IMG/VR virus record: IMGVR_UViG_3300038470_000084 | Location: 1-23,430 of that record | Origin: a virus | DNA: 23,430 bases | Direction: 5' to 3' (one strand) | Shown here: piece by piece, positions 1,565-13,211 of the stretch | How positions within the stretch are numbered: position 1 is the stretch's first letter | Layout: each line of letters begins with the position of its first letter | The notes under the pieces: model-generated | The model's input: the letters and a program-made list of their open reading frames with translations, nothing else | The model's database searches: none | What the model was told of the DNA's origin: nothing | Program-made: the position numbers and the translations under genes

Positions 1565-3121
1565 TCACTTTGCTAGGTTGATGATGTTGGCCATGTGGCC
1601 GGTGAGTTGAATCTCGACGCCGCGCCCCGTCTTGTTTGGGATCAGTGTGAGGGTGTCTATGAGTTCGCGGATGGCGGAGGCGGCGCGTTCGCGGGCGGCT
1701 CCTTCGGTTGCCAATGCGTCATCCAGTTGTGCGATATAGATGCGGTAGCGATCGGCCAGGTCGTCGGGCAACGCGATCGGTGCAGCATCGTCCAGCGCTT
1801 TCAACTGATGTTCTGCGTCTGCCAGGTCAGCGCGGGCGGTGCGCAGGCGGTCTTTGACCTCCTGGAACTCGCCAGCACCATCAGCGATCGCGTCCACAAG
1901 GCGCGAAATCCTGCCGCGCAGGTCAGCGGCTTTGCGCTCGAGCGGGGCGCGATTTGCGGTGGCTTCCGCAAGGCGCTTGCGGATGCCGACATTATATCGC
2001 TCGACAAACAACTGAATAGCGTCGGGATTGAGCAGGATTTGCTTTAGCTGCCCCATCGTGCGCTGCTCATAGAGCGCGGTCGAGATGGTGCGCGTATTCG
2101 AGCAGGCCTGTTTGTTCTTGGCAGTCGAACAGCCCCATTTTGCCGGACTGATGACGGTCCATGTGCCGCCGCAAACCCCGCATTTTCCGAGGCCGGACAG
2201 CAGCCTTTTCGGGTGTCGCTTCTTTGTCCTGATTTCCCCATCGAACGCGGCGTAATGGGCCTCGATCGCCGCCCATTGCGCGTCTGAGACAATGCGCAGA
2301 TGGGGCACGTCGACGAAACGCCATTCGCTGACCGGGTTGACGCGAGCGACATAACGGCGCGTCTTGGGATGATAGGCGCGGCGGGTTCGGCCGTAGACCA
2401 TCACACCGCGATAGAGATTATTGCGGAGAATGCCGTTGGCCCGAATACGATCGCCATGGATGACATTCGTTGCCCATAATTTGCCGCTGGGCGAGGGTAT
2501 GCCTTCTTCGTTGAGGGCCTTCACGATCGCGCGGCTGGAGACCCCGGCCAGTGTCTCATCGAAGATACGGCGAACGATCGCCGCCTCTTCTTCATTCACC
2601 TGGAGGATGCCGCGAACGATTTCGCCATCTTCGCCGATTTTCTTGACCACGTTATAGCCGTAAGCGAGGCCGCCGGCATTGAAGCCGCGTCCGTGCTGTC
2701 CGCGTTGCCCGCGCCGAATGCGATCCGCCAGATCCTTTAGGAAGCGGGAGTCCATCAGCCCCTTGATGGTGCCGGTAATTTCGTCGACATGGCCATCAGC
2801 GAGGGTGAAGAGCCGTGCGCCGAAATGCTCCAAATGTTCGCGGACTGCATGGGCGTCGCCGCTGTGACGCGCAATGCGGTCGGTGGCTTCCGCCAAGACC
2901 TGATCGACATCGCCGCGCTCCACACGGTTGAGCATCGCATTGAGTCCAGGGCGCTGCATTTCACCAATGCCCGCGCGGCCGCTGATCTCTTCGTCGGCGA
3001 ATGTGTCGATAATGGTCCATCCTTCGCGATCAGCGCGCTCGCGCAGCGACGCGATCTGATCGACAGTGGACAGGGCATTTTGCAGTTCGCTGGAATATCG
3101 GGCGTAGAGGATCGTGCGCAT
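1565..3121 (-). CDS. Large serine recombinase (phage integrase)
   Basis: The 518-aa protein has large-serine-recombinase architecture. An N-terminal resolvase domain (about 1-140) starts with YARYSS; Ser10 after Arg8 is the expected nucleophile, and EISGRAG and DRIARHSGD are conserved catalytic-domain segments. The recombinase domain follows (about 150-300, with GLAYGYNVV and IFDETLAGVSSRAIVKALNE). Next is a zinc ribbon (CGVCGG, then two more Cys about 11 and 20 residues on) and a long charged coiled coil (about 375-450), which in such enzymes controls synapsis and excision. It would integrate and excise the prophage at attP/attB without replication. It is the last gene of the leftward early operon; the upstream small ORF stops three bases before its ATG and no good Shine-Dalgarno is seen, so translation may be coupled. 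P2 itself uses a tyrosine integrase, so this is a module swap. Confidence 0.93.
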   Translation of the reverse strand: MRTILYARYSSELQNALSTVDQIASLRERADREGWTIIDTFADEEISGRAGIGEMQRPGLNAMLNRVERGDVDQVLAEATDRIARHSGDAHAVREHLEHFGARLFTLADGHVDEITGTIKGLMDSRFLKDLADRIRRGQRGQHGRGFNAGGLAYGYNVVKKIGEDGEIVRGILQVNEEEAAIVRRIFDETLAGVSSRAIVKALNEEGIPSPSGKLWATNVIHGDRIRANGILRNNLYRGVMVYGRTRRAYHPKTRRYVARVNPVSEWRFVDVPHLRIVSDAQWAAIEAHYAAFDGEIRTKKRHPKRLLSGLGKCGVCGGTWTVISPAKWGCSTAKNKQACSNTRTISTALYEQRTMGQLKQILLNPDAIQLFVERYNVGIRKRLAEATANRAPLERKAADLRGRISRLVDAIADGAGEFQEVKDRLRTARADLADAEHQLKALDDAAPIALPDDLADRYRIYIAQLDDALATEGAARERAASAIRELIDTLTLIPNKTGRGVEIQLTGHMANIINLAK

Positions 3122-5614: not shown

Positions 5615-5917
5615 CTAGATCTTCCGTTCGGCCGTTTCTGCGGGTTGCGATTCGCTCGACCGATCGCAAAAGACGCGCTTGCCAGGCGGCGGTAGATCGG
5701 TGTGTGCGGCATGCGGCCGACCCAAGGGGAAAACGACATGTTCAGCGGTGATCGGCAGGCCCAACTTCAAGCCAACGGCCAGCACATGGGGCTGCTTTTC
5801 AGCCGGTATGCGGCCGACGCGCTTCCATGCAGCTACATTCGAAGGATGTTCGCAGAGTTCGCGCGCCATAGGGCGGACGCCTCCAAACATATCGAAAATG
5901 GTCGTACGATGTTCCAT
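5615..5917 (-). CDS. Cro-like HTH protein (carph-isopro/YdaS type)
   Basis: A 100-aa protein whose first 65 residues form a compact HTH: TIFDMFGGVRPMARELCEHP, then SNVAAWKRVGRIPAEKQPHV and a helix ending LGLPITAEHV. The GG-x-R-x-MA-x-E-L, W-x-x-x-G-R-IP-x pattern is that of Cro/YdaS-like phage repressors. The last 35 residues are low-complexity and charged. It is the first gene of the leftward early operon and diverges from the repressor-like gene at 6002, with three dyads between. It is therefore the likely Cro counterpart, shutting off the repressor promoter on induction. The exact family is inferred. Confidence 0.72.
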   Translation of the reverse strand: MEHRTTIFDMFGGVRPMARELCEHPSNVAAWKRVGRIPAEKQPHVLAVGLKLGLPITAEHVVFPLGRPHAAHTDLPPPGKRVFCDRSSESQPAETAERKI

Positions 5918-6001
5918 GTCGACAGGCGTATAACAATTTTATACGGCGATCAATACGTATTTTGACCGGACGCCGTGTAAAAATTTCGTACAGCTTGGTT
6001 T
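5918..6001. promoter_or_regulatory. Divergent immunity control region with three dyads
   Basis: The 84 AT-rich bases between the Cro-like and repressor-like genes contain GTATAA-N5-TTATAC (5928-5944), the perfect palindrome AATACGTATT (5952-5961) and TGTA-N9-TACA (5976-5992). All three share TA(C/T)-type half-sites, and a further small palindrome TCGTACGA lies inside the Cro-like gene (5902-5909). TTGACC at 5962 could be a -35 for the rightward gene. These are the probable operators where repressor and Cro compete; promoter positions are not certain. Confidence 0.6.
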
Positions 6002-6526
6002 ATGCCTCCCGTCGGACCCAAACTTAAAGAATTGCGTCTACGCGCAAAGCCCGCTCTCTCCCTCAGGAGGATGGCTGACGAACTTGGTATGGGCCATTCG
6101 CGCTATCAGTATTTTGAAGATCCGAACCGTTACAAGAAAGCGGCTTTGCCTATCGATTTGACCCGGTCGGTGGCGGAGGTTTTAGGACGATACGGAGTTG
6201 ATGCCTCTGAGGTCATGACCCTTGCGGGATTGACAGATACAGAGGCCGAGCCCGAAGCCCGCGAGATTGAAGCGCAACGGCCTGCTTTTGTCAGCATCAC
6301 CTTGCCCGTGATCCTACCTAGTGAAGTCGCCCTGCGCGATATGTTCCGCAGCCTGCTCGTTCTGGTTCCCGAGGGTGCAACGAAGGACGAAGCTGCTGCC
6401 ATTCTTGCTCGACGGCTGCCAGCTGGGCTTGCAGCGATCGGCCCTCTCTCGCTCGATCAAGCGACGGTTGCATCGCTTGCAGCCGGTGAAGCTGCTCAAT
6501 CTCCCGCCACAGAGCATCGTGCATAG
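6002..6526 (+). CDS. Phage repressor-like HTH protein
   Basis: A 174-aa protein with an Xre-type N-terminal domain: LKELRLRAKPALSLRRMADE, then LGMGHSRYQYFEDPNRYKK, then helices with LTRSVAEVLGRYGVDASEVM, to about residue 75. The C-terminal 100 residues have no visible S24 peptidase Ser-Lys signature, so RecA-driven self-cleavage is not apparent and induction may work another way. It diverges from the early operon across the dyad-rich control region. No strong ribosome site precedes the ATG, which may be close to the transcript start. Immunity repressor is the likely role by position and fold. Confidence 0.7.
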   Translation: MPPVGPKLKELRLRAKPALSLRRMADELGMGHSRYQYFEDPNRYKKAALPIDLTRSVAEVLGRYGVDASEVMTLAGLTDTEAEPEAREIEAQRPAFVSITLPVILPSEVALRDMFRSLLVLVPEGATKDEAAAILARRLPAGLAAIGPLSLDQATVASLAAGEAAQSPATEHRA

Positions 6527-6918
6527 CCGCTAGCGTCGCGCAGCTGACCATGCAGGCCGTGCAACGAAATTCGCATCCTGGCGTCAGTCTGATTGCTCGT
6601 TCGCTCAATTCACCGCTACCCGAATGTTCGCCATATGTTCTATTCTATGGGCTAGGTAAGGTGCTGTAGGAAAGAGGGAAATGTGTCGGCAGGATTTTTC
6701 CTGTGCAACATCAACCCTGAAGTGGGCAGTGCGCGAAGATTTGAGCGGCAGCTGATCTAAATCATGGGCAGTCCTGTGACATTGGTGAGTGTCAAGGTTG
6801 CGGTCTCCCTGAACCCACTTGCTTTCGGTCTGAAACCGTCAGTAGATGGTGTTCGAACTGTCATATTTTGGCGGCATGTCGCGCTATGGAGCGCGACATG
6901 CCGGACTTTAAAGGTGTC
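6527..6918. other. Gene-poor stretch between repressor and accessory block
   Basis: I see no convincing gene in these 392 bases. Two tiny plus-strand ORFs are present: 39 codons from about 6552, and 24 codons from 6681 after a good AGGAAAGAGGGA site; neither resembles a known protein. The only clear structure is the hairpin near the right end. Confidence 0.5.
6872..6903. terminator. Strong 13-bp hairpin, probable terminator of the DUF6232-like gene
   Basis: CGGCATGTCGCGC (6872-6884) and GCGCGACATGCCG (6891-6903) pair perfectly around the loop TATGGA. The hairpin begins 16 bases beyond the stop of the leftward gene at 6919. On the minus strand it is followed by CCAAAATATG, without a T-run, so it is not a classic intrinsic terminator; it may still terminate or protect the 3' end. 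Confidence 0.5.
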
Positions 6919-7302
6919 TTAGGCCGCGACCATCGCGGATTCGATCTTTCGGCGAAGATCATCAATCATCTCGCCATCACGAGAGGTGATGGCCTGCGCC
7001 TCAGAAGATGAGGTCATCAAGAAGAGCTGATACTCAATTATCTTGGACTTGAGCCACAACCTGTAGGCGACGAAGCCAAAAATGGCGGCGACGATCAGTG
7101 AGGTGAAGCCGCCCGAACTTTCTCCAGAGCCTAAAAGCGTCCCCAGCCCAGACATCCCGAAAATGAATGCCAGAACCCCAAACATGAACATACCGGCTTG
7201 TCCATGCGGCTTCCGCTCCCGGACCTCTACAGTGTTAATTTTATTGATCGCGTAGCTCTTCGATCCGAACCGTGCGAAATCCTTGTCAACGGTGACGTTC
7301 AT
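6919..7302 (-). CDS. DUF6232-like small membrane protein
   Basis: A 127-aa protein with a short beta-rich N-terminus (DKDFARFGSKSYAINKINTV, then EVRERKP), two membrane helices (about 37-58, GMFMFGVLAFIFGMSG; about 68-88, SLIVAAIFGFVAYRLWL) and a helical C-terminal tail. The order YAINKIN-x-VEVRE, two TMs, then a polar tail resembles DUF6232 membrane proteins of unknown function. I took the ATG at 7302, with GGGGGGAACG upstream, over an in-frame TTG at 7314. It stands alone, with 252 bases before it and a strong hairpin after it, so it is probably an independently expressed lysogenic-conversion gene. Confidence 0.68.
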   Translation of the reverse strand: MNVTVDKDFARFGSKSYAINKINTVEVRERKPHGQAGMFMFGVLAFIFGMSGLGTLLGSGESSGGFTSLIVAAIFGFVAYRLWLKSKIIEYQLFLMTSSSEAQAITSRDGEMIDDLRRKIESAMVAA

Positions 7303-7554
7303 CGTTCCCCCCAAATTGCGTCCATAGTTTGCCCAGCCGCAGAATTTGCAAATGCATTACTAATAGTAAAGGATTTTGAAATTGGCTGGGGTACAAGCTG
7401 CGGTTTGAAAAGTTCAAATCGCGATCGTAATAGTGCTCGGTGTCCTGGCTGATCGGAGCGATCTTCGCGGCCCGCCTGCGGTTGATCGGGGCACACCACT
7501 TCTCGCATAAATCGACGCTATTTGGCTGATGAGATGCCCATGACGTCATAGTCC

Positions 7555-7782
7555 CTATGATTTCGCCAATGGTGTGCACAAGTGCATTCTTAATGGCCTC
7601 GACACATCGATCGAGGTGGTAGAGGCCGTTGTCGGCGCCCCGCCGGTGGCGTCGGTCTGGCTTTGGCCATTAGGTGCCTGACAGGTTTCAAACGCTTCGC
7701 CCGTGAAAGCGGACCTTTCAAACGTCAATGAGTCAACCACTCCGGCGAATATGGGCACCTGAAAAACATATCGCATGATCAT
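7555..7782 (-). CDS. Fourth ORF of the overlapping cassette, hypothetical
   Basis: A 75-aa ORF starting MIMRYVFQVPIFAGVVDSLT. Its ATG overlaps the stop of the preceding cassette gene as ATGA, the same arrangement as the other junctions, which is the main reason to accept it. The C-terminal half is rich in Thr, Ser, Ala and Gly and looks unstructured; a short hydrophobic segment lies near residues 6-16. No family is recognised. An upstream extension in the same frame (to 7842) would overlap the previous gene by 64 bases and is rejected. It may be a non-functional overrun. Confidence 0.4.
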   Translation of the reverse strand: MIMRYVFQVPIFAGVVDSLTFERSAFTGEAFETCQAPNGQSQTDATGGAPTTASTTSIDVSRPLRMHLCTPLAKS

Positions 7783-8327
7783 GCATCGGGAGGCGTTATA
7801 CCAAATGGCGGCGCATAGAGCCCATAAAGACGATGAAGCCAATGCTCACGCAATGACATATTCCAATGGCGCGCGCGCCGTGGCCGGATCCAAACCACGC
7901 CGCCGCGAAACGGCACCTCGAGACCGACCTTAAGATAAGCGGCGGCACGATGGCGACGCGGAGTGGCGACGCACCAATGCTCACTGTCGATGTCCCATGA
8001 GACCGTGGCGCGTGCAGCAAGCACGGTCAGGGGCGGGTCATGGTCTTCCATGTCGGTCGCATAATTGAGCAACAGCGGCAGAGCAGGCGTCGCGATGAAC
8101 CAAGCCGGACCGATGTATCGGAATGTGAGCGCCAGATCAGAGCGGTTGGTAATGGTGAAGCGATGCCAGGATTCTTGGGCGTTGTTGCCTTCGCCATAAT
8201 CGATGGAGATGCGCAGCCGTCGTCGCCACTGCGCGGTCAGGAACGTATAGAATCCCGTCAGCCCCCCGATCAAACCGACCCAGCCGCCCGCATCTTTCAC
8301 CGTCGCGGCAATCCCGGCCCAGTTCAT
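7779..8327 (-). CDS. Membrane-anchored hypothetical protein with beta-rich domain
   Basis: A 182-aa protein with one N-terminal TM helix (about 14-31, GGWVGLIGGLTGFYTFLTA) followed by RRRLR, so the C-terminal domain should be cytoplasmic. That domain reads as a beta-sandwich: RISIDYGEG, WHRFTITNRSDLALTFRYIG, then repeated strand-like segments. The FTITNRSDLALTFRYIG pattern recalls Ig-like/fibronectin-type strands in uncharacterised membrane proteins. The ATG overlaps the previous stop by one base (TGATG); a GTG three bases earlier would give a GTGA overlap. It is part of the leftward cassette 9249-7555. Function is unknown; a structural or sensing role at the membrane is inference. Confidence 0.6.
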   Translation of the reverse strand: MNWAGIAATVKDAGGWVGLIGGLTGFYTFLTAQWRRRLRISIDYGEGNNAQESWHRFTITNRSDLALTFRYIGPAWFIATPALPLLLNYATDMEDHDPPLTVLAARATVSWDIDSEHWCVATPRRHRAAAYLKVGLEVPFRGGVVWIRPRRARHWNMSLREHWLHRLYGLYAPPFGITPPDA

Positions 8328-8770
8328 CACCAGACATACCCGGCGGCTTGCAATGTAAAGCCAAGTAGGATGAGGACCAAACCGCCATAGGTAACACGCA
8401 GCGACATACGAGCCGTCTGCTCGTCGCTCTCAACCGTAGCCGCCATCATCCGGGCGACGGTGCCCACATGGTCCGCGAGACCGTTGATCCCGTCTTTGAC
8501 CTCTTCTAGACTGCGCTCCGCAGCGTCATGGTCGAAGGTGCCTGCGCTGGGGAGGAATTGACCGTCGTCGCGGTAATATTCCCGGAAGTCACCTGAGATC
8601 GACTTCAGAAAGCGCTCCATTCCGCCTGCGCCCGCTACCACCTCGGTCAGCGCTGATAGACGGTCCGACGCATCGCTTCGTAATTTTCGCTGGACCCGGA
8701 CGAGATCGGCGCCAAGCATCATCACGCCGACGAAATCGAGCACCAACCCGCTCACGCTCAGCGCGATCAT
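8327..8770 (-). CDS. Two-TM hypothetical protein of the accessory cassette
   Basis: A 147-aa protein with a TM helix at each end (about 4-22, LSVSGLVLDFVGVMMLGADL; about 124-145, RVTYGGLVLILLGFTLQAAG). The soluble middle is helical and charged (VRVQRKLRSDASDRLSALTE; ERSLEEVKDGINGLADHVGT). Hairpin topology would place the middle on one side, probably the cytoplasm given RVQRKLR after TM1. Its ATG overlaps the upstream stop as ATGA, and its stop overlaps the next gene's start. I do not recognise the family. It could form a complex with its two neighbours, since coupled translation often marks subunits. Confidence 0.62.
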   Translation of the reverse strand: MIALSVSGLVLDFVGVMMLGADLVRVQRKLRSDASDRLSALTEVVAGAGGMERFLKSISGDFREYYRDDGQFLPSAGTFDHDAAERSLEEVKDGINGLADHVGTVARMMAATVESDEQTARMSLRVTYGGLVLILLGFTLQAAGYVW

Positions 8771-9249
8771 TCTACAGGATTCCGAGACAACCTATTGATG
8801 ATGCGACCTGGTCCTATCCGCCAGATGCGTTTGATCGTCCACCCCTTCGTCACCTCCCATTCCCGTTTGAGGACGGCACGGGACAACCTCATGGCGATCG
8901 CCAAATTCTCCTGCTCTGCGTCATCGAGAAGAGAATGGAGGATGTTCGCAAGATCCGTGTGCTGGGGCTCGCCGGCATTCAACCGCAAGAGAATCTGGCG
9001 ATACTCTTTCTCCGCGATTTGCTGCGCCTCCTTCAGGGCCGACGGGCCATTGGTGTCCTTCCGAGACCGCGCCGCCGCGAGGCGGTCGATCAAGTAGAAA
9101 TAGTCAGAAAGGTGATCGCGGAGCGCGTTGATCCACGCTTGCCGATGCCCGGCGATCGCAACAGCCTTATTCATTCGGGCGCTCACGACCGCAGCGATAA
9201 CCGTGCCGATGCCGATCCCGGCAACCAAAGTCATCCATGGCGGACTCAT
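8767..9249 (-). CDS. One-TM hypothetical protein, first gene of the accessory cassette
   Basis: A 160-aa protein. MSPPWMTLVAGIGIGTVIAA forms an N-terminal TM helix; then HRQAWINALRDHLSDYFYLI and further charged helices follow to the C-terminus, where a basic stretch (KRIWRIGPGRIINRL) could touch membrane or nucleic acid. The HRQ-x-WIN-x-LRD pattern after one TM is found in uncharacterised bacterial membrane proteins; I know no function. The start at 9249, preceded by GGAAGCCTC, is chosen over the longer open frame to 9462, whose extra 71 residues have no visible start signal. It is the promoter-proximal gene, facing the divergent gene at 9589 across 339 bases. Confidence 0.65.
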   Translation of the reverse strand: MSPPWMTLVAGIGIGTVIAAVVSARMNKAVAIAGHRQAWINALRDHLSDYFYLIDRLAAARSRKDTNGPSALKEAQQIAEKEYRQILLRLNAGEPQHTDLANILHSLLDDAEQENLAIAMRLSRAVLKREWEVTKGWTIKRIWRIGPGRIINRLSRNPVE

Positions 9250-9588
9250 GAGGCTTCCATTCGGCACGACAAGTCCCTCGCGATTGAAATCGCCATCAAG
9301 GGTAAATAGTACACACCTTATTGTCGATCGGCAAAAGCAGATCGACGTCGCAGGCATGCTATTGATTGCAGACAAATTGAATATTTGGTCTTTTATTGAG
9401 TCACCGCTCTCGCGATGGACGACCTCAAGCTGCGAGCTCGCACAGAGCGCTTGGGCGATCACAAAGGGATTGGCCGATTTCAGTCTGTCTGCTTACCGGC
9501 GGGTAAAAGGGAATAGTTGCCGTCCGCTAGCACTGTTTTTCTTGGCGAAGGAACCCTGTCCAAGTAGCATTCGGGTTTGGGGGATTGC
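9250..9588. promoter_or_regulatory. Divergent intergenic region between the cassette and the plus-strand gene
   Basis: This 339-base gap lies between two genes transcribed away from each other, so it must supply promoters for both unless they are silent. The part from about 9350 to 9400 is notably AT-rich. I could not assign -35/-10 pairs with confidence and see no strong dyad. A 33-codon ORF at about 9415 lacks a ribosome site and is not accepted. Confidence 0.4.
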
Positions 9589-10665
9589 ATGGCTAACATA
9601 GGCAAAAATTGGAACGGTCACATTTTCGGGACAAACACGGGTAACGTCGCTGTCTCGCTTGAAGGAGAGGACTCAGCCCTTTCCGGGCTGGTCCGACTAA
9701 GCGACACGCAGCATGGCGTCATCGTCTATGAAGTCTTTGGCAGCTTTGAAGCGGGAAGCCTGAACCTAACCGGTAAGCCGCAAGGGGAAGTTCCCGAAGG
9801 AGTCGTCGTTGGGGAGTTGACGGTTACCGGAGCGCTCACCCCAGAGGGCAGGATCGATGGCGAATGGTCAACCACGATCGGCACGGGTGGCACCTACCAG
9901 CTTTGGCCTCATGCATATGAAATTCGCCCGACAAACCCCGGCGCCATTCCCGAGCAAATGAACACATCTACCCGGTCAATGGGAGCAATCCGCCTTTATG
10001 CAGATGATGTGCGGAGCCTCATCGCTCAACTCGTGAAAGATTTCTCGCAGAAGCGAGCTGTTGTTACATTCAACGATAGAGGCAACGAGAAGAACATTTA
10101 TGCCGACGAGTTTGAATCTATTTTGGATGATCTTCCCGAATTACGCTACCTAAAGATTTCTGTCCAAGAGCCAGAAATGTATGGGCTTAACCGAAACGCA
10201 ATGATCGAATTGACCGCGTGGGGCGAAAACACGATCAGAGTTCAAAGTGTTCAAGAGGCCTGGGCGATAGGAAAGGCGGAAGCCCTTTCTCGGCATGTGC
10301 TCGGATTTCAGCGGAAACTTGCCACACAATTCCGAAAGTTCGGATTGACGGTCAATGTGATGATTACTGTTGCTGCGCTAGCTGCGTTACCGGGATTGCC
10401 AACATTTTGGCAACGATTAACGTTCGGGGCTAGCACATTTGTCGTCCAATCCCTTATTGCCTACTTCCATCGCCAGTATGTGCCAAACTTCATGTTGTTT
10501 CCCACCAAACGAAAATCCAGTTGGCTTGGAAAGCTGGGGCCAGGTGTAGTGTCATGGGCTATTACGATAATAGGAGGAGTTTTCGCCGCCGTTATCTACG
10601 GCTTGCTCAAGGGTGAATTAGACGGCTCACCGCTGGCGACAGCGCTTCGTGGACTCTTCCCGTGA
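9589..10665 (+). CDS. Three-TM protein with beta-rich N-terminal domain, candidate membrane effector
   Basis: A 358-aa protein. Residues about 1-105 are glycine-rich and strand-like (NWNGHIFGTNTGNVAVSLEG; later IDGEWSTTIGTGGTYQLWPH), with the look of a beta-barrel or beta-sandwich. Residues about 125-240 form a mixed alpha/beta domain (IRLYADDVRSLIAQLVKDFS; RYLKISVQEPEMYGLNRNAM). Three TM segments follow, near 255-272, 277-297 and 318-341. GGGGGAT just before the ATG supports this start over the in-frame TTG at 9577. Base composition is unlike the phage core: 25 of 60 bases at 10081-10140 are G/C. It faces away from the membrane cassette and converges on the nuclease-like gene. No family is recognised; a soluble sensor joined to a membrane domain is the plain reading. 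Confidence 0.72.
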   Translation: MANIGKNWNGHIFGTNTGNVAVSLEGEDSALSGLVRLSDTQHGVIVYEVFGSFEAGSLNLTGKPQGEVPEGVVVGELTVTGALTPEGRIDGEWSTTIGTGGTYQLWPHAYEIRPTNPGAIPEQMNTSTRSMGAIRLYADDVRSLIAQLVKDFSQKRAVVTFNDRGNEKNIYADEFESILDDLPELRYLKISVQEPEMYGLNRNAMIELTAWGENTIRVQSVQEAWAIGKAEALSRHVLGFQRKLATQFRKFGLTVNVMITVAALAALPGLPTFWQRLTFGASTFVVQSLIAYFHRQYVPNFMLFPTKRKSSWLGKLGPGVVSWAITIIGGVFAAVIYGLLKGELDGSPLATALRGLFP

Positions 10666-10735
10666 TTGGCTAAGGGTAGACTTCACAATTCTCTAAAACC
10701 GAAATCGTACGCTTAGGGTGAGCTTGGAACCAGCG

Positions 10736-12148
10736 CTATTGTCCTAGACCTAGCGAATCCTGTACGAACAGCACCTCGGAATCGCTGCGAAGCCAACGAT
10801 GCTCGCCAAACATATAATTTCGTATCTGTGCGACATCGACCTGCTGGAACGGGCCGTAAGTGTCCATCATCATCGCGCGGGAGGATTCCAAACCCTCTCG
10901 CTGGCTGTCCGCGATCCAAGACAATGATACGAACTCGTACGCGACACGCGCGACCAATTGCTGAGCGATGCCAACTACGCCGCCAGCGTCGTGAACGCAA
11001 TGAAGAGCATAGTCGCTCCCTGGGTCGAAATCAATTTGCCAACCCGGCGTGGCCATCTGCCTGCATAGTTCGTCCATGCTCGCCGCGACGATGATAAAGA
11101 TGTTGCCCTCGATAAAATCTAAGAGGTGCTGGGGCTCGCGAATTGTGAGGATGAAAGGCGTGTAGGGCGCCCACGCAAAGTCGTTCTTGTCGCCGTTCAG
11201 AGTCCAGAACACGCTCCGCTCGTGAGCGAGCGTCTCAAAGATCGCTGAGTAGTCGGGCCGCCCGCCAGCAATTACCGCGTAAGCAATGCCTGGTTCCGGC
11301 CGAGAAATCGCAAACCCTGTCCTTTTAGCTTCAGCGATGCACTCATTCAGCGCTGCGACATTGTTGCGCTCAGGGACGGTGACCACTTGCCGCTTCGTCT
11401 CGCCAGGCGCTCCCCTGTAGCCGACCGCACGATCAGTCTCCAAGAAGCTGCGCAGCTTCTCCATCTTCTCGGCCTGCCGCTTACCTCGACCGCTTTGCTT
11501 CGGGCTGCTTTTCACCTCGATAGGCACGGGATCGGAAGCACCGAGCAAACACACATCGCCATAGCGGATGGTGTTAGTAATGTCGGAAAGGACTGCTGGC
11601 ACCTTATGCTCCAGGGCACTGAATAGGCACTTCAGCTCGCCAACTAACCCCTCTTTGCCACGGATCATCCCGGCATCACGTTTTATGGCGAAGCGGTCGG
11701 TGTCATAGTAGGCATGCTTGATTGCGAACTTGTCGAGATAGAGGAACGCGAGCGCGTCCCCGCAGCATTTCCAGATGTAAATCTGCTTGGCGTATCGGTC
11801 GATGAATCCCGCCTTGCGCTTGATCTTTATTCTGAGCGCCTTGCTGATTTCCTTCGATCCCCGACCTGTTTTCAACTGCCGGTACAGTTCCTTGTGCGCA
11901 AGGCGATGCTCGTCCTGCTTTCGCTCTGCGCGAATGATCTCCTTCAAGACGAGGAGGTTTAGGGCTTTGACCGAAGCAAAATCATCCTGATCCGCTTCAA
12001 TCGTGCGGAGCAGCCGTACCATTTCAAAAAACCGCTGCTGTCGCCGACCCACCATCATTAGCGTTGTACCGACCTCCGCGTAAATCGGCATATCGTTATC
12101 CCAAACATCACCAAATGGCGATCGCGGAGGCGGCAGCCCGACCTTCAT
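10736..12148 (-). CDS. Putative PD-(D/E)XK-superfamily nuclease protein
   Basis: A 470-aa protein. Residues about 20-165 are helical and very basic (LRIKIKRKAGFIDRYAKQIY). At 170-225 there is a pattern fitting a restriction-endonuclease-like active site: KEGLVGELK (Glu171), RYGDVCLLG (Asp198), PIEVKSS (Glu211, Lys213) and then KRQAEKMEKLRSF with Gln225. This E, D, ExK, Q order suggests metal-dependent DNA or RNA cleavage. The C-terminal half (230-470) is unassigned and may bind target or partner. The start at 12148 avoids overlap with gene D, which ends 55 bases upstream; ATG 12091, after GGGA, is the alternative, and the open frame to 12250 is rejected. It may be read from the late operon or its own promoter. 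The nuclease call rests on motif spacing by eye. Confidence 0.65.
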   Translation of the reverse strand: MKVGLPPPRSPFGDVWDNDMPIYAEVGTTLMMVGRRQQRFFEMVRLLRTIEADQDDFASVKALNLLVLKEIIRAERKQDEHRLAHKELYRQLKTGRGSKEISKALRIKIKRKAGFIDRYAKQIYIWKCCGDALAFLYLDKFAIKHAYYDTDRFAIKRDAGMIRGKEGLVGELKCLFSALEHKVPAVLSDITNTIRYGDVCLLGASDPVPIEVKSSPKQSGRGKRQAEKMEKLRSFLETDRAVGYRGAPGETKRQVVTVPERNNVAALNECIAEAKRTGFAISRPEPGIAYAVIAGGRPDYSAIFETLAHERSVFWTLNGDKNDFAWAPYTPFILTIREPQHLLDFIEGNIFIIVAASMDELCRQMATPGWQIDFDPGSDYALHCVHDAGGVVGIAQQLVARVAYEFVSLSWIADSQREGLESSRAMMMDTYGPFQQVDVAQIRNYMFGEHRWLRSDSEVLFVQDSLGLGQ

Positions 12149-12203
12149 TTGAATGTCCGCTTGCAACCACAGAAAAATCCCGGTCAAACGGCTTGGATGG
12201 GCG

Positions 12204-13211
12204 CTAAGTCGCCGTTTCCATCTTGAGCGCTGTCGTGAACCCGCTGCCATTGTCGAGGTTATGGCTCACTTCGTTGATTAGCCAGATGCCATCGATCCCC
12301 GCCTTGATACCGCTCACGCTGGCGCGTAGGTCGACATAGATATCGGCGCGGCCGAGCGCCAGGCGGATGTCCAGCGTGGCCGGCGCGCGCTTCAAGCGCG
12401 CCTGTTCAGCGGTTGCCGCGCGACGCGCTGACGCTTCGTCCGCAAAAGTCTTGCGGAGCCGCTTGGAGCCGTCCTTCTCGCCCACTGTGACCGTCTGGCG
12501 CTTCGCTGCCTTGCGATCGTGCCAGCTGGCGGTCACGCCGGCCTGGCCATCGCGCTTTTGCCGTTGCCAATTGTGGCCGTCGCCGGCACTGCGACGGATG
12601 GTCAGGGTGGGCAATGCGGTGCCGCTGGTGGTGGTGCCGGCGCCCTTGCGCGCGAAGATCAGCTTGCCGTCCTTGATGGTCGCAACGGCGTCATTTTCGC
12701 GCCCCAGGCGGCGCAGGAACGCGATATCGCTCTGCCGGCTCTGACTGACGGTCGGCAGCGCGATCGACGCCAGATCGGCTGCTATGCGCGGCCTCAGGCC
12801 ATTGCGCCCGGCAACCTCCGTTAACACCGCGCCCAAAGTGGTATTTTGCCAGCTCTGTTCCCGGCGGTTACGGATGTGGCTGGTGAAGTCGGCGGCGCGG
12901 GCGCGAATGCGGACCTGATCGGGCGGGCCGCTATGACTGACATCGTCCACCTTGAACGTGCCCTTGTCGATCAGGCCTGGCGTTACGTCACGGCCTTGTT
13001 TCCAGCCCAGGGCAAGGCGCAGCGTTGCACCCTCCGATGGGAGGGCCAGACCGCCATCGCTATCGTCCAACACGATATCCAGCTGGTCCGCCTCATCCCC
13101 GCGCTTTTCCGACAGGGTGAGCGACACCAGGCGCGGGCGCAGCTTGCCGGTCAAATCGGTGTCGCCCAGCGTGACGCGGAAATCGGGGATATTGGCGATG
13201 CGATCCGTCAT
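12204..13211 (-). CDS. D: Tail hub protein, late control gene D
   Basis: A 335-aa protein matching P2 gpD, the baseplate hub between tube and spike. It starts PDFRVTLGDTDLTGKLRPRL, has the conserved SEKRGDEADQLDIVLDDSD block at about 33-51, LPSEGATLRLALGW at about 56-70 and a C-terminal WLINEVSHNLDNGSGFTTAL typical of the family. The ATG overlaps the gpU stop as ATGA. It is the last gene of the recognisable tail operon. In P2, ogr would follow; here an accessory gene follows. Confidence 0.92.
   Translation of the reverse strand: MTDRIANIPDFRVTLGDTDLTGKLRPRLVSLTLSEKRGDEADQLDIVLDDSDGGLALPSEGATLRLALGWKQGRDVTPGLIDKGTFKVDDVSHSGPPDQVRIRARAADFTSHIRNRREQSWQNTTLGAVLTEVAGRNGLRPRIAADLASIALPTVSQSRQSDIAFLRRLGRENDAVATIKDGKLIFARKGAGTTTSGTALPTLTIRRSAGDGHNWQRQKRDGQAGVTASWHDRKAAKRQTVTVGEKDGSKRLRKTFADEASARRAATAEQARLKRAPATLDIRLALGRADIYVDLRASVSGIKAGIDGIWLINEVSHNLDNGSGFTTALKMETAT

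Follow-up and report, generated by a model that had tools for sequence, protein, structure and literature searches.

P2-like phages carry anti-phage hotspots, which have been described at the old/tin and fun loci in Escherichia coli and at a site between the repressor and the integrase in Vibrionaceae (PMC9122126, PMC9519451). One P2-like phage, AC1, carries a three-gene system consisting of a TIR protein and transmembrane proteins that has been shown to protect (PMC9122126). Here, we describe the region from the tail gene gpD to the repressor as a P2-like cargo position rich in defence genes in Sphingomonadales phages, within which lie three undescribed families of predicted membrane proteins (A, B, and C). 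The DNA analyzed, hereafter the window, comprises 23,430 nt and represents a 23.4-kb IMG/VR virus record. It is a prophage of the P2-like type, and we infer a host of the order Sphingomonadales from the occurrence of relatives of its proteins there. Over 16,153 bases, the window matches another contig, L021, at 100.000% identity; the two are therefore the same phage. P2-like tail genes run leftward and occupy the window from gpD to its right end. The landmarks of the window are as follows.

61-1386: host-type gene
1565-3121: serine integrase
5615-6526: repressor/Cro-like pair
12204-13211 (leftward): gpD, P2-like tail gene (PF05954, 1.9e-16; phrog_52, 9e-128)

With gpD as the query, 80 related phage contigs were collected. 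Nucleotide homology between the window and three of these contigs (L022, L023, and L025) ends at the gpD stop codon (window positions 12187-12205) and resumes at ~6704, just before the repressor. Across the 60 related contigs that contain both borders, the region between them varied from 0.9 to 7.5 kb, and its gene content differed from phage to phage. Known defence genes at this position include a complete Septu system (L023; PtuA, 5e-151; PtuB, 6e-68) and LmuB (L092; 9e-161), together with the candidate systems PDC-S06 (L084), PDC-S20 with a KAP NTPase (L037), and PDC-M41A (L083), as well as a TIR gene (L097), three C5 methylases, and one Vsr gene (PADLOC, Pfam). Non-defence cargo is found there too, such as glycosyltransferase-like (L022) and, by eye, sulfotransferase-like (L075) genes, among others. 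The gpD-to-repressor region is therefore a hotspot for cargo in which defence genes abound, and the proposal in the initial annotation that the cassette occupies a variable site of a P2-like prophage is borne out by the swapped content of the 60 contigs and by the known defence systems in relatives. The hotspot resembles those described previously in being a site between conserved genes with swapped content that includes restriction-modification, Septu, and other known systems, but its position, between gpD and the repressor, is not that of old/tin (between gpA and gpQ), of fun, or of the cI-integrase site, and its host belongs to the Sphingomonadales. In the window, the hotspot is organized as follows.

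6704..12203 (no strand assigned): cargo hotspot, gpD stop codon to repressor, holding the 504-aa ORF, the 358-aa gene, A-B-C, and the DUF6232 gene
6919..7302 (−): DUF6232 gene, 127 aa, two transmembrane (TM) helices; cargo in common with L024 (96%), L091, and L062
7555..7782 (−): fourth ORF, 75 aa, judged not to be a gene (codon score, alignment with L024)
7779..8327 (−): gene C, 182 aa; weak N-terminal membrane segment, then a strand-rich cytosolic domain
8327..8770 (−): gene B, 147 aa; two TM helices (1-19 and 122-140) and a cytosolic loop of ~100 aa
8767..9249 (−): gene A, 160 aa; N-terminal TM helix leading into a cytosolic four-helix bundle
9250..9588: intergenic region between A and the divergent 358-aa gene, presumed site of the operon promoter
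9589..10665 (+): divergent 358-aa gene; strand-rich N-terminal part, two C-terminal TM helices; cargo, no family
10736..12250 (−): 504-aa ORF matching PHROG 14906 (function unknown); cargo

Searches for the 358-aa protein in plasmids, phages, and IMG/VR returned the same phage only, as did searches for the 504-aa protein in phages and IMG/VR. The 504-aa ORF contains a PD-(D/E)XK-like stretch (GDVCLL...PIEVKSS; motif by eye). Its first ~33 residues overlap the end of gpD out of frame, which accounts for the similar initial residues of an unrelated ORF in L022, and its true start is therefore probably located later.

The initial annotation described a cassette of four ORFs in which every start overlaps the previous stop. 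For A, B, and C, both the ORFs and the junctions hold: the B start lies on the A stop (4-base overlap; ATGA at 8770-8767), and the C start lies on the B stop (1-base overlap; TGATG at 8329-8325, where the positions given earlier, 8327-8329, cover the stop codon alone). An SD-like GGAAG precedes the ATG of A, C starts without a clear SD, and codon scores as well as operon geometry favour all three as real genes. The fourth ORF does share an ATGA with C (7782-7779), but it is not a gene. Specifically, its codon score is negative, with other frames of 7555-7782 scoring higher, and alignment with the related phage L024 (from window position 7689 downwards) revealed several indels and no third-position bias, the substitutions per codon position being 12/9/11 compared with 3/2/16 for the DUF6232 gene in the same alignment. 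Positions 7525-7689 of the window, which are common to L024, read DNGLYHLDRCVEAIKNAL in a frame other than that of the fourth ORF, and L024 has the similar DNGLRHVDQCVDAIRNVL; the stretch may be what is left of an earlier cargo gene.

Elsewhere in this genome, neighbouring genes overlap by 4 bases in four further cases and by 1 base in one. Since such overlaps are common in this phage, the geometry of A-B-C indicates an operon with translational coupling and not a complex of fixed stoichiometry. The earlier suggestion of a shared complex with fixed stoichiometry is unsupported, given that the overlaps are ordinary in this genome and that homologues of A, B, and C were only found apart (see below). 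In the intergenic region (9250-9588), no sigma-70 consensus was found above chance, and a scan for promoters and terminators likewise returned nothing above chance.

None of the three proteins has a match of meaningful length in Pfam, PHROGs, PADLOC, or NCBIfam, which agrees with the previous remark that the cassette contains no known phage structural family. Among the PADLOC-DB models, A and C had no match and B matched ZorA over a 44-residue stretch only (E = 0.0045); no relative of A, B, or C was found among INPHARED phages, and comparison of these proteins and the 358-aa protein with the sequences of solved structures gave matches at chance level only. TM helices had been proposed for all three genes. 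This is clear for A (one helix) and B (two helices), whereas the Kyte-Doolittle score of C stays below 1.3 in every 19-residue window (its Novosphingobium relative reaches 1.34), so that a TM helix in C is likely, not firm. By the positive-inside rule, the soluble parts of all three proteins are predicted to be cytosolic.

Relatives of A were detected in 11 of 398 Sphingomonadales genomes, in one more alphaproteobacterium, on one E. coli plasmid, and in seven further prophage contigs, and the conserved columns of the family contain the motifs RQxWIxxLR and LKxEWxxxK. An AlphaFold2 model built from seven A sequences (pLDDT 77) consists of a long N-terminal helix continuing into a four-helix bundle, with pLDDT >90 over most of residues 40-130 and low confidence in the TM part. 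Fold searches with the bundle gave a best Z of 12.1 (6db1, a chemoreceptor sensor domain), which is within the tool's range for unrelated helical models, and a best Foldseek E-value of 0.32. The matches are generic helical bundles.

The genes observed beside A relatives, given here as a raw listing, include several linked to defence. The A-family gene of L120 has as neighbours both Gabija (GajA and GajB, with E-values reported as 0) and an Mrr-like nuclease accompanied by a CHAT-like ORF, and that of L119 adjoins an Mrr-like/CHAT-like pair alone. Other neighbours are an nSTAND3 protein (L121), a PLD-like protein (L122), HATPases (L118 and L123), and putAbiC (L017). At least two A relatives (L018 and L124) are without a defence neighbour, and in the seven prophage contigs (L126-L132), the A-family genes are mostly single, low-GC, and on the strand opposite to their neighbours. 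Judged by its relatives, A is a recurrent, undescribed family of phages and defence islands. Its recurrence beside Gabija, putAbiC, STAND, and nuclease/CHAT-like genes therefore makes it a concrete candidate, open to testing, for a membrane component of general use in bacterial immunity. The layout of a membrane helix plus a cytosolic helical part is shared with putAbiC (PF16872) and other membrane abortive-infection proteins, but PF16872 matches none of A, B, and C. A repeated two-gene islet was also observed, in which a DUF7946-like gene lies on the other strand from an A-family gene (L020:6191-7781, L114:7414-8451, and L116, with the A-family gene near 7030); in related phages, the cargo at the hotspot also includes a DUF7946 match (Pfam 5.9e-30; L040 by eye).

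For B, a single relative was found in 299 Sphingomonadaceae genomes (~30% identity [29%], E = 2e-15, TM motifs conserved). It is chromosomal and stands alone, with low GC3, beside pcrA/uvrD and without a defence neighbour. A B profile had no match in 337 alphaproteobacterial genomes, a set that contained no known positive. The weak match to the MotA/ExbB-like ZorA of Zorya covers residues 78-121 of B and 44 of 487 model positions, B is only 147 aa long, and A-B-C includes neither ZorB nor an effector; on these grounds, the locus does not qualify as Zorya, and B was rejected as a ZorA relative.

In the genome-contig search, C used alone retrieved 0 loci, and a two-sequence C alignment retrieved 4. 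Relatives ~50% identical to C are located in Novosphingobium islands, directly behind a 419-420-aa protein with four TM helices and, where annotated, with an integrase-family gene downstream. The AlphaFold2 model of C (pLDDT 36, from four near-redundant sequences) was too poor for use. In two loci (L004:4659-6456 and L006:6716-8516), an AbrB/PIN toxin-antitoxin pair is located upstream of the four-TM protein and the C-family gene.

Taken across all searches, none of the 126 other loci contained two of the three families, and the sole second copy of A-B-C, also the only one among the 80 related contigs, is that of L021, i.e., the same phage. The gene order thus did not recur in unrelated genomes, and the homologues never co-occurred in this sample, an outcome that the initial annotation had named as refuting its reading, although B is represented by one relative only; with one known relative, the co-occurrence test is therefore weak for B and stronger for A and C.

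We consider, with moderate confidence, that A-B-C is an accessory ('moron') operon serving as anti-phage or exclusion cargo in a defence-rich hotspot, the defence or exclusion role being suggested by context. In a lysogen, A-B-C would be transcribed leftward from the intergenic region between A and the 358-aa gene, and the overlaps would couple the translation of B and C, both of which are without a clear SD. From their predicted topology, the three proteins would be anchored in the inner membrane and expose to the cytoplasm soluble domains that could sense infection or act on the membrane. Action against other phages might take the form of a block at an early step of infection (exclusion) or of a membrane-damaging abortive response, and protection of the cell from other phages would protect the prophage as well. 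The parts were probably assembled from separately mobile families, with A as a widespread module of phages and defence islands. Like the AC1 system, the locus comprises three cargo genes, includes transmembrane proteins, and sits at a hotspot of a P2-like phage, but it is without a TIR or other nucleotide-signal gene; the likeness noted here is one of layout. Against an anti-phage role stand the lack of a match to known defence models, the non-defence cargo at the hotspot, the chromosomal B relative and the two or more A relatives that have no defence neighbour, and the separate occurrence of A, B, and C relatives.

This separate occurrence speaks for an alternative that we regard as quite possible, namely, that A, B, and C are separate co-transcribed membrane morons, each acting alone (one maybe as an exclusion protein), with no joint system. 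The finding that none of the 126 other loci combines two of the families, the single A genes of the seven prophage contigs, the solitary B relative beside pcrA/uvrD, and the different partner of C (the 419-aa four-TM protein) all fit this explanation, but the order A-B-C with its two tight overlaps, set among cargo that is otherwise loosely spaced, speaks for a degree of joint expression, and the one known B relative makes for a weak test of co-occurrence. A bolder form of the defence-cargo reading seems rather unlikely: A-B-C would be a novel anti-phage system of three inner-membrane components that sense through cytosolic domains, and the A and C families would be membrane parts able to replace each other in an unnamed defence module, whose partners at other loci are an Mrr-like nuclease and a CHAT-like protease. 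Lysogenic conversion unrelated to defence, in which the operon alters the host envelope, stress response, or metabolism, is improbable; cargo of such a kind does occupy the same site in relatives (the glycosyltransferase-like and sulfotransferase-like genes), but A, B, and C showed neither an enzyme-like motif nor a secretion signal, and relatives of A have defence neighbours. A role in the phage's own lytic cycle, as a structural, lysis, or other module, might be suggested by small membrane proteins encoded by overlapping genes on the tail-gene strand; it is highly improbable and was rejected, for the genes match no PHROG or Pfam family, are missing from other related phages with the same tail genes, and lie within swapped cargo.

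The pairing of an Mrr-like gene with a CHAT/caspase-like gene, which is absent from PADLOC, was itself observed to recur in Sphingomonadales (L119:7405-8977(−), L120:5126-6689(+), and L009:8478-10571(+)), with the motifs W.QFEELC...GQAQ.GVDI...G.QCK in the Mrr-like and HF..HG ... C in the CHAT/caspase-like member. The A-family gene is convergent to the pair in L119 and L120. In L009 (Erythrobacter colymbi), a frameshifted C relative, i.e., a remnant, precedes it, lying 24 bp before an Mrr-like gene that is 31% identical to that of L119 (2e-16) and is followed by the CHAT-like gene. The meeting of A and C with the same unusual pair at different loci (three loci, one with a C remnant) is the most interesting link to emerge here.
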